From: Oryzomonas sp.
GTDB taxonomy: Bacteria > Desulfobacterota > Desulfuromonadia > Geobacterales > Pseudopelobacteraceae
DNA length: 64,000 bases
Direction: 5' to 3'
Assembly (NCBI GenBank): GCA_031292255.1
Contig: JARLHN010000040.1
Coordinates: 22,835-86,834, forward strand
Part shown: piece after piece, positions 40,317-43,046 of the stretch
Layout: every line of letters begins with the position of its first letter
Numbering within the stretch: the first letter of the stretch is position 1
The notes under the pieces: model-generated
What the model was told of the DNA's origin: nothing
The model's database searches: none
Seen by the model: only the letters and a program-made list of their open reading frames with translations
Program-made: the position numbers and the translations under genes

Positions 40317-41876
40317 CTATTGAGTGCGTTCGGCAAGCGCCTTTTCGACGAACTGCTTCACGTCCCGGTTCAACTCCCCGCGTGAGGTACTGTCCAGATA
40401 GACCATATGCCCGGCGCGGTAGCGGCGGATGGAGATGCTTTTCTGAAGCGCCGGCGTCAAGCCGAGGTGGTTGAGCGTGTAGATGCTGGAGAAGTGGGGG
40501 GTGGCCAGGTCGAAGAGCCCCATGGCCACGAAGAGCTTCATGTAGGGGTTCTTGGCAAAACTGTTGCGCAGGTTATCACTTGTGTCGGCGTAGCTGTTCT
40601 TCGCCTCCCAGTCCCAGTGACCGATGCCGCCGCCCAGGACAAAATATTCCAGGTCGGATTTGTAGCCGAGTTCCGTGCGGATGTAATGGTTGAAAGCGTC
40701 GGTATAGGGCGGCCGGATAGTGGTGACGGTGGGATCGAACCCGTGATGGTTTGACGGCTCCAGGTCCGGGGCCGTGAAGCGGCTGTCCATGAAGCCGACC
40801 ATCTGCTGCCGGTCGCGGAGAAGCTCCCTGACAAAGCTCCTGCTGTCGATACGCAGGTTGTTGTTGGCGATGAAGGCTGCATCCAGACCGGTGAATTCAG
40901 CCAGTTTGCCGGCAACCTCCCGGCGTTTCGCGGCCGGCAGGCTATCGCCCTGGACAAGGGCAGCCGTGTATTCCGTTGCAGCCCACGACTCCGCCTGGGC
41001 CAGCGTCTTGTCAAGGTCGGCCTGGAACTGGGGCGCCAGTTTGCCGTGATACCAGGCGGTTGCGGTATAACTGGGGAGGAACAGGGCGTAGGGCAGGTCA
41101 TTGCCATTGTCGAAGCCAAGGGTCTGCAAGTTCATGACGGAGGAGATCAGTACGATGCCGTTGAGCGCTATGCCGTGCTCAAGCAGGTATTCGGACAGAC
41201 CAGCGGCGCGAAAGGCGCCGTAGCTCTCGCCCGCCAGAAACAGCGGTCCGCCCCAGCGTTCGTAACGTCCCAGATAGAGCCTGATAAACCGGCCCATCGA
41301 GTCCACATCACCATCGACAGCGGTGAATTTTTTCGTCAGATCCGCCTTGGTTGCCCGGCTGTAGCCGGTGCCGACAGGATCGATGAACACCAGGTCGGCC
41401 CACTCCAGCCAGGTTGTGTCGTTATCCTCAAGGCTAAAGGGGGGCGGGGGCATCCTGCCGTCGGGCAGCATGCGCACGATGCGGGGGCCGACGGCGCCGA
41501 GGTGCAGCCAGACCGCCGCCGCGCCGGGACCGCCGTTGAAGATGAACAGGAGAGGCCGTTTCACATCGCGGGAGGGGTTGGAAGCGGTGTAGGCGACAAA
41601 AAAGACCTGGGCCTCGGTTTCGCCGGCATCGTTTTGTATCGGCAGTTTTCCTGCGGTTACCGTATAGGCCAGTTCCTTCCCCTTGATGGCGATGGCGTGG
41701 CGGGTCACGACCGGTGTTTCCACGGCCGCGGCCGAATCCTTTTTATCCTTCTCCGCACTTTTCTCGTCGTCACGGGGGGGGTGGGCGATGTTTGTCGTGG
41801 TTTCCGCCCTGGACAGGCATGGGTGATGGAATTCACCCGCCAGCAAGAGAACCGTCAACAGCAGGGATATGAACAA
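40317..41876 (-). CDS. S10-family serine carboxypeptidase-like exported protein
   Basis: 519 residues with a signal peptide (FISLLLTVLLLAGEF). The alpha/beta-hydrolase core carries the oxyanion segment FIFNGGPGAAAVWLHLGAVGPR, nucleophile S218 in LAGESYGAF, and later the acid and base in GLFDLATPHF and GHMVYLD. These fit the S10 triad Ser-Asp-His. S10 enzymes remove C-terminal residues, best at low pH; bacterial members are less studied. It is divergent from the selenoprotein gene. Confidence 0.88.
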   Translation of the reverse strand: MFISLLLTVLLLAGEFHHPCLSRAETTTNIAHPPRDDEKSAEKDKKDSAAAVETPVVTRHAIAIKGKELAYTVTAGKLPIQNDAGETEAQVFFVAYTASNPSRDVKRPLLFIFNGGPGAAAVWLHLGAVGPRIVRMLPDGRMPPPPFSLEDNDTTWLEWADLVFIDPVGTGYSRATKADLTKKFTAVDGDVDSMGRFIRLYLGRYERWGGPLFLAGESYGAFRAAGLSEYLLEHGIALNGIVLISSVMNLQTLGFDNGNDLPYALFLPSYTATAWYHGKLAPQFQADLDKTLAQAESWAATEYTAALVQGDSLPAAKRREVAGKLAEFTGLDAAFIANNNLRIDSRSFVRELLRDRQQMVGFMDSRFTAPDLEPSNHHGFDPTVTTIRPPYTDAFNHYIRTELGYKSDLEYFVLGGGIGHWDWEAKNSYADTSDNLRNSFAKNPYMKLFVAMGLFDLATPHFSSIYTLNHLGLTPALQKSISIRRYRAGHMVYLDSTSRGELNRDVKQFVEKALAERTQ

Positions 41877-42143
41877 GGGATGTCACCTCCGGAGTCAGGC
41901 GCTTGGACTGCAATTCATGAAGAGATTATACTTTAATCCCCTATGCTGTCCACAACCATCACATCGGTTCGTGGCGAAGAACAGGGCCGACCGGGCGTCC
42001 GGCCGGTGATGATGTGGTCTATTTGGCGCTGTTGGAAGTTTGCAAGATGCATATGAACTTGAATATATGAGGTGGGGGCGGATGATGCCGGTTCGGCATT
42101 ATCCCGAACGTCCAATCACGAGATTGCAGCACAGGGGATCGGG

Positions 42144-42686
42144 ATGAAAGATCTGACAGGCAAACCGGCGCTTCCTTTTGACCTTCATGAAAGCAGGGGG
42201 CGGCGTTACCGCCTTATGGACTTCGCGGGAAGCTGGCTCTTGTTGGTTTTCCACCGCCATCTCGGCTGACTGCCGTGTCGCGCTCACATCACGCAGTTGC
42301 GTGATCATGCAGATGAGTTGAAAGACAGAGGTGTGGCCGTTGTGGTGGTCACCTTCGAGAATGATTTTTTCGCCCGCTCCTATGTGGAGGAAACCTCCTT
42401 GGCCTGGCCGCTTCTCGTAGATGTGACCCGTGAAACCTATAAGAGCTATGGCATGCTCTCGGCGTCCTTCTGGGATGTTTGGGGGCCGAAGACGTGGTGG
42501 GCCTATCTGAAATACCTGGCCAAAGGGTACAAGCTCAAGAAATCAGGGGGCGATATATTCCAGCGTGGCGGTGATGTGTTGATAGACCCGGAGGGGATTG
42601 TCCGCCTGCATCATGTCGGGACCGGGCCGGCCGATCGTCCTGCTATTGAAGTTATTTTGCATAAGATCAGCGACGCCAAGGGCTAA
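42144..42686 (+). CDS. Peroxiredoxin-like selenoprotein with in-frame UGA (Sec42)
   Basis: The frame from ATG 42144 meets TGA at 42267-42269 and then stays open to 42686, giving 180 residues if UGA is read as selenocysteine. The product is a thioredoxin-fold AhpC/TSA-like protein: GKPALPFDLHESRG, then LLLVFHRHLG-U-LPC with Sec42 and Cys45 in a UxxC redox motif exactly where the peroxidatic residue belongs, then ITQLRDHADELKDRGVAVVVVTFE and VLIDPEGIVRLHHVG. A SECIS-like hairpin follows the UGA. GGGGATCGGG precedes the ATG. The alternative, a nonsense mutation, is less likely because both sides are intact. Standard gene callers would split or truncate it. Confidence 0.85.
42288..42305 (+). promoter_or_regulatory. 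Bacterial SECIS-like hairpin for the UGA codon
   Basis: ATCACGC-AGTT-GCGTGAT forms a perfect 7-bp stem with a 4-base loop holding G at its second position. The stem begins 18 nt and the loop 25 nt after the UGA. Known bacterial SECIS elements have a small G-containing apical loop about 16-37 nt after the UGA, which SelB binds. It lies inside the coding sequence. Confidence 0.75.
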
Positions 42687-42764
42687 CCGCCCTATGGCGC
42701 CGCTTTCAAAATTGGATAGCCATCCTCCGTGACAGCGCAGGGGGCGGCTGAGGCGAAATGTGCC

Positions 42765-42932
42765 TCAGGCGGCGGAGTTGAGCAGGGAACACCCCTCGTT
42801 CAGGTAGTCGGACGCATGGACCTGATCGACAACCCAATAGAGGTTATCCCGTCCCAACAAGATGGCAACCGGCTCTTTAAGGCCGATGGCATACATCTGT
42901 GCCACGGAATAAAATGAGAATTTGGCGTACAC
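42765..42932 (-). CDS. Small protein of 55 residues, unknown family
   Basis: GTG-initiated ORF with GGGGAGAAAACC directly before the start, encoding MYAKFSFYSVAQMYAIGLKE in its first 20 residues, then an LLGRDNLYWVVDQ segment and ending LNSAA. Composition is protein-like (aromatic and hydrophobic residues well spread). It lies antisense to nothing annotated, in the 423-bp gap between the selenoprotein and the HD gene. An inverted repeat CTGAGGC/GCCTCAG (about 42748-42768) at its end may act as a weak terminator. I recognise no family. Confidence 0.5.
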   Translation of the reverse strand: MYAKFSFYSVAQMYAIGLKEPVAILLGRDNLYWVVDQVHASDYLNEGCSLLNSAA

Positions 42933-43046
42933 GGTTTTCTCCCCTTGTCTGTTTCGGGTCTTGTTTTGGATGCTGCTAGGATAGCATAAGACGTGCCAGA
43001 AGTTTGCCGTTATAAAAACAGTACGTTACGGCTTTGTGACGAAATA

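Follow-up and report, generated by a model that had tools for sequence, protein, structure and literature searches.

Positions 42144-42686 of the window (the whole stretch of 64,000 nucleotides of Oryzomonas sp. DNA that was analyzed) are very probably a working selenoprotein gene, in which SelB and a hairpin would drive selenocysteine (Sec) insertion at an in-frame UGA. Translation would start at ATG 42144; at UGA 42267-42269, the hairpin at 42288-42305 would recruit SelB with its Sec-tRNA-Sec, and selenocysteine would be inserted. The predicted product has 180 residues and a thioredoxin fold, and belongs to the SelL-related family. The analysis shows the frame, the conserved UGA, the covarying hairpin, the insertion genes, the family assignment and the predicted fold; the actual insertion of Sec, the chemistry and the substrate are inferred. 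The features are as follows:

42144-42686, + strand: selenoprotein gene, SelL-related redox protein (NF040769), 180 residues plus a TAA stop
42133-42137, + strand: AGGGG, a possible ribosome-binding site by its sequence, 6 nt before ATG 42144
42267-42269, + strand: in-frame TGA at the codon for Sec42 in UxxC, conserved in all 29 distinct close members counting the window's
42276-42278, + strand: TGT codon, Cys45, putative redox partner of Sec42 in UxxC, Cys in all 29 rows of the close-member alignment
42288-42305, + strand: SECIS-like hairpin with a 7-bp stem and loop AGTT that starts 18 nt past the TGA, conserved and covarying

TGA 42267-42269 was the sole interruption of the frame 42144-42686 (+), which is open on both sides of it, as the first-pass annotation had claimed. 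Upon read-through, U42 lies in the context VFHRHLG-U-LPCRAH and Cys45 follows three residues after it. This agrees with the earlier placement of the UGA at the redox position of HRHLG-U-LPC, with Cys three residues later. The program-made ORF list splits the gene into 42072-42269 and 42297-42686, bearing out the expectation that an ordinary gene caller would report two short ORFs; the gene is a clean case of one split in two by ordinary annotation. PF00578 matched over the whole read-through protein (E 3.1e-20, 72.8 bits, cut-off 26). The piece before the TGA matched PF00578 positions 2-34 and was under the domain cut-off alone (E 0.0041). The piece after it matched positions 40-122 (E 3.6e-11), adjoining the part matched by the first piece. 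The NF040769 match reached 198.2 bits (cut-off 120), with protein residues 8-173 on model positions 2-171 of 173.

We searched for close relatives with the motif F[HL]RHLG?LPC, in which any residue was allowed at "?" and which forms with other flanks would escape. The motif occurred at 33 loci; these encode 29 distinct proteins, one of which is the window's. We observed that the residue at "?" was U (TGA) in 29/29 distinct members, and that none of them was a Cys form. Scanning genome contigs turned up 13 loci, namely one distant locus and 12 close ones at 57-74% identity. NF040769 was over its cut-off in 10 of 57 genomes (own included), with one internal TGA each, and matched in 13 of the 76 genomes of the family, again with one TGA in each. 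Across the phylum, 22 of 395 genomes had matches at E 1e-20 or better: eight close forms with ULPC (own included), seven distant forms with U and seven distant forms with Cys. The first-pass annotation had asked whether homologues carry U or C at position 42. Close members uniformly had TGA, and distant ones had either U or Cys. All matches above 50% identity to the window protein carried U; the Cys forms were at about 20-26% identity. Because one distant Cys form (G141) passes the NF040769 cut-off (120.7 bits vs 120), the family as a whole is not Sec-only. Among viral contigs, 13 stretches matched a pattern and none encoded a relative of the window protein. Four plasmid records were found, none above 60% identity (best 25.6% over 94% of the query).

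The seven distant U forms in the phylum comprised UxxA (n = 5), UxxS (n = 1) and UxxC (n = 1). Six distant NF040769 relatives (L068, L069, L071, L072, L073 and L080) carry RHFG-U without Cys three residues on; five are UxxA and one is UxxS, and their host genomes carry selB. The redox partner of Sec in these UxxA and UxxS relatives is not obvious. A UxxS form of the peroxiredoxin-like family already appears in Table 1 of PMC13188914.

Translation table 11 closes the frame at the TGA, and the locus would then be a broken gene or two short ORFs. We consider a true stop very improbable, since the TGA is kept at exactly the same codon in 29/29 members with both halves conserved, one domain runs across it, the hairpin covaries and the Sec machinery is complete (below). 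A broken gene or a base-call error was ruled out by the TGA kept in all 29 distinct close members. The sequencing error at 42267-42269 that had been raised as a concern is excluded because independent genomes carry the same TGA. We regard as negligible the possibility that the TGA encodes a different amino acid or is suppressed by chance; no evidence for it emerged, though the frame by itself does not specify the residue. Cys stands at the TGA site in distant relatives (7 of the 22 phylum matches), which fits Sec, and the hairpin and the Sec machinery also argue against it. As to a reassigned TGA, some relatives' frames end at TGA (read from trimmed frames), so that TGA is still a stop there.

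The hairpin also supports selenocysteine at the UGA. Its arms are ATCACGC (42288-42294) and GCGTGAT (42299-42305) around the loop AGTT (42295-42298); the perfect 7-bp stem that had been noted 18 nt after the UGA was thus confirmed. Among the 29 distinct members (window included), the stem was 6 to 8 bp long and the loop was AGTT in 28 and GGTT in one. The fourth pair from the loop was AU in 20 members, GC in three, UG in three, GU in two and UA in one. Pairs were counted after reducing 28 loci to 24 distinct stretches, with L087-L091 left out. Across these stretches, 96.4% of 168 cells were paired, three of the seven stem pairs had changed on both sides (13 cells) and three pairs were invariant. 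Pairing fell to at most 57% when the partner was shifted by 1 to 3 columns. The covariation score was 0.258, compared to 0.072 in shuffles, and 0 of 500 shuffles, which ignore relatedness, scored as high.

We also compared the hairpin with what synonymous codon choice yields. When the codons of the window gene were redrawn, a stem of at least 7 bp arose at the hairpin site in 18 of 2000 trials. Stems averaged 6.79 bp over the 24 distinct stretches, of which the window's is one, whereas the null averaged 0.94 bp (sd 0.26) and reached at most 2.42 in 2000 trials. Conservation of the hairpin is far beyond what codon choice yields. Stems of at least 6 bp with a 4-nt loop occurred at 90 of 18285 places in close-member genes, the real hairpins counted. 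The 29-member set with its covarying hairpin could serve for testing SECIS models.

Thermodynamic folding of the window sequence was less favorable. The 71-nt stretch folded no more stably than its shuffled versions (z −0.89; 33 of 200 shuffles did as well), and in folds starting at 42260 or 42270 the hairpin had a pair probability of only 0.04-0.06, other pairs winning. When folding started at 42276, omitting the first 6 nt after the UGA, the pair probability rose to 0.84-0.99. In the other 23 of the 24 stretches, the hairpin was part of the lowest-energy fold when the 52 nt that follow the UGA were folded, the window being the exception. We give the window's unfavorable fold little weight because a ribosome waiting at the UGA would stop the first following nucleotides from pairing. 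An Rfam scan of 42100-42750 gave no match to a SECIS family; one sRNA match on the other strand was at chance level (19.8 bits, gathering 50; E 0.64) and was rejected. PMC1088965 describes bacterial SECIS elements as stem-loops that closely follow the UGA and have G in a small apical loop. The window hairpin, with 7 bp, loop AGTT and a distance of 18 nt past the UGA, agrees with this description.

Genes for Sec insertion were present in the same genome. We found selB (375 bits), selA (603.2 bits) and selD (364.2 bits), the last carrying an in-frame TGA itself. Three genes for tRNA-Sec with anticodon tca also exceeded the cut-off. All the machinery that the first-pass annotation had proposed to look for was therefore found. 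Together with the conserved TGA and the covarying hairpin, these genes support its call of a probable selenoprotein. Sixteen genomes that carry a close member, this one among them, were screened for selB, and 15 scored above the cut-off. The remaining carrier, G393 (260 contigs, 92% complete), had no selB at E 1e-40. In four of five further carriers (G445, G446, G447, G460 and G473), a tRNA-Sec gene was found under stricter filters. selB was also present in 7/7 genomes with distant U forms and in 5/7 with Cys forms.

Two of the tRNA-Sec genes of this genome sit within the copies of a 227-nt direct repeat (96% alike; spacing 2491 nt) at positions 932-3649 of L085 (G000:C43), just before selB, with one 635-aa ORF between them that by eye resembles a sensor kinase. 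The third, at positions 478-570 of L086 (G000:C30), is clearly different (55.2 bits, anticodon tca). Gene numbers in genus-mates were three in G005, two each in G002 and G003, and one each in G001 and G004.

We then assessed the fold and the likely function. An AlphaFold2 model built from 11 sequences (the window and 10 relatives) had a mean pLDDT of 82.6 and a pTM of 0.78, and was uncertain at about residues 107-140. In Foldseek, the leading matches were peroxiredoxins of the Bcp and AhpC types (3hjp_A, E 8.2e-12, TM 0.74). By sequence, the best solved structures were ResA oxidoreductases (4nmu_A, E 4.2e-06), whose CxxC aligns with U42/C45. Compared to ResA-type oxidoreductases, with which it shares the thioredoxin fold, the window protein has Sec for the first Cys and the model-uncertain stretch. 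The peroxiredoxin active site is PxxxTxxC. This site is absent from the window protein, where Arg38 and Sec42 replace Pro and Thr. Three relatives with PxxxTxxC (L032, L034 and L042), presumably Bcp-like from their motif, have Pro at Arg38, Thr at U42 and Cys at C45. The earlier description as AhpC/TSA-like held for the fold, by PF00578, the model and Foldseek; it did not hold for the peroxiredoxin site.

A peroxiredoxin-type peroxidase, with Cys45 or Sec42 attacking peroxide, is the alternative on function and concerns function only. The Bcp and AhpC peroxiredoxins at the head of the fold search (3hjp_A) speak for it, as does the alignment of Cys with Cys45 and Thr with Sec42 in the Bcp-like relatives. 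Against it stand the substituted Pro and Thr positions, the thioredoxin-type UxxC motif and the closeness to ResA by sequence. The Prx-like family is also set apart by UXXC where Sec peroxiredoxin has TXXU (PMC1088965). We regard peroxidase activity as the main role as unlikely, and assignment as a peroxiredoxin was dropped on account of the PxxxTxxC site not being conserved. Because that site is not conserved, we prefer to read the motif as a thioredoxin-like UxxC pair, and a thiol:disulfide oxidoreductase fits the protein better than a peroxidase. The likely job of the protein is thiol/selenol redox chemistry via the U42-C45 pair. Sec42 and Cys45 would cycle through a selenenylsulfide, which would make reduction or exchange of disulfides (or of selenium- or arsenic-bound thiols) the most likely activity, with peroxide reduction possible.

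Selenoproteins of this kind are known already, and the window gene is a further example. Knowledge of selenocysteine coding is unchanged by it. The window protein passes the cut-off of NF040769, SelL-related redox protein, and by model name and scores no feature sets it apart from that family. NF040769 is named after SelL, whose motif is UxxU, whereas the window protein has UxxC, with Cys45 in all 29 rows. SelL has been described as a Prx-like selenoprotein (PMC2398784). Prx-like thiol:disulfide oxidoreductase selenoproteins were listed in 2006 in Table 3 of PMC1794560. The hosts listed are Geobacter sulfurreducens, G. metallireducens, Syntrophus aciditrophicus and Desulfotalea psychrophila (PMC1794560, PMC13188914). 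Table 1 of PMC13188914 gives PF00578 with UxxC or UxxU, represented by WP_010940744.1, as "predicted with high confidence". The window protein shares PF00578 and the UxxC motif with these oxidoreductases. A literature search under the narrower family names and the HLGULPC motif found no related paper among those listed, judged by title. The connection to published work is therefore made through the broader Prx-like UxxC entries.

The selenoprotein gene stands alone in the window, and its neighbors give no hint of function. An S10-type peptidase gene lies upstream on the other strand, and a 189-aa gene without a Pfam match at 1e-10 lies downstream. None of the neighbors recurs beside the gene in relatives (ORFs of at least 100 aa in the flanks fetched). 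The downstream gene was present in 5/5 genus-mates; in tblastn of 4.7-kb stretches, the selenoprotein and the S10-type peptidase (window 40317-42770) were not beside it in any of the five. NF040769 at E 1e-20 had no match anywhere in these five genomes. DNA similarity to the genus-mates ended at 42764-42780 in four and at 43010 in one. In the four, similarity begins about 80-95 nt past the selenoprotein stop codon. The absence in genus-mates fits gain in the window lineage or loss in the others. A tree of the 29 members needed four changes of family label, of which starred branches force two; only 9 of 26 inner branches were starred, and the tree does not decide on lateral transfer. The tree's phylum labels for some deltaproteobacterial contigs were disregarded because the genome search places the genome of one of these (L048) in the same phylum.

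A recurrent neighborhood was observed at six other loci (L026 and L087-L091). Here, genes for a VTT-domain membrane protein and an FAD oxidoreductase, identified on L087 and at the other loci by similarity, lie just upstream of the close member. The radical-SAM gene arsS then follows in five of the six, directly after the close member in three and about 0.9 kb on in two, with an EamA-type transporter gene between. In the family, 12 of 13 carriers had arsS, compared to 34 of 63 non-carriers (P = 0.012, Fisher, kinship ignored), a weak association. The arsS neighborhood in some relatives is a first, weak hint of a pathway for a family whose substrate we nowhere found stated. A further proposal, prompted by the lack of Cys forms among the 29 members and by the gene's place in an arsS operon in some carriers, is of a close subfamily that is Sec-only, is spread patchily over several families of the phylum and acts on arsenic- or selenium-bound thiols handled with ArsS and not on peroxides; in our view it is improbable. 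The window's own genome carries an arsS homologue (TIGR04167, 364.3 bits; G000:C8:20907-21803) on another contig than the selenoprotein gene. It contains one in-frame TGA, and is for that reason probably another selenoprotein.
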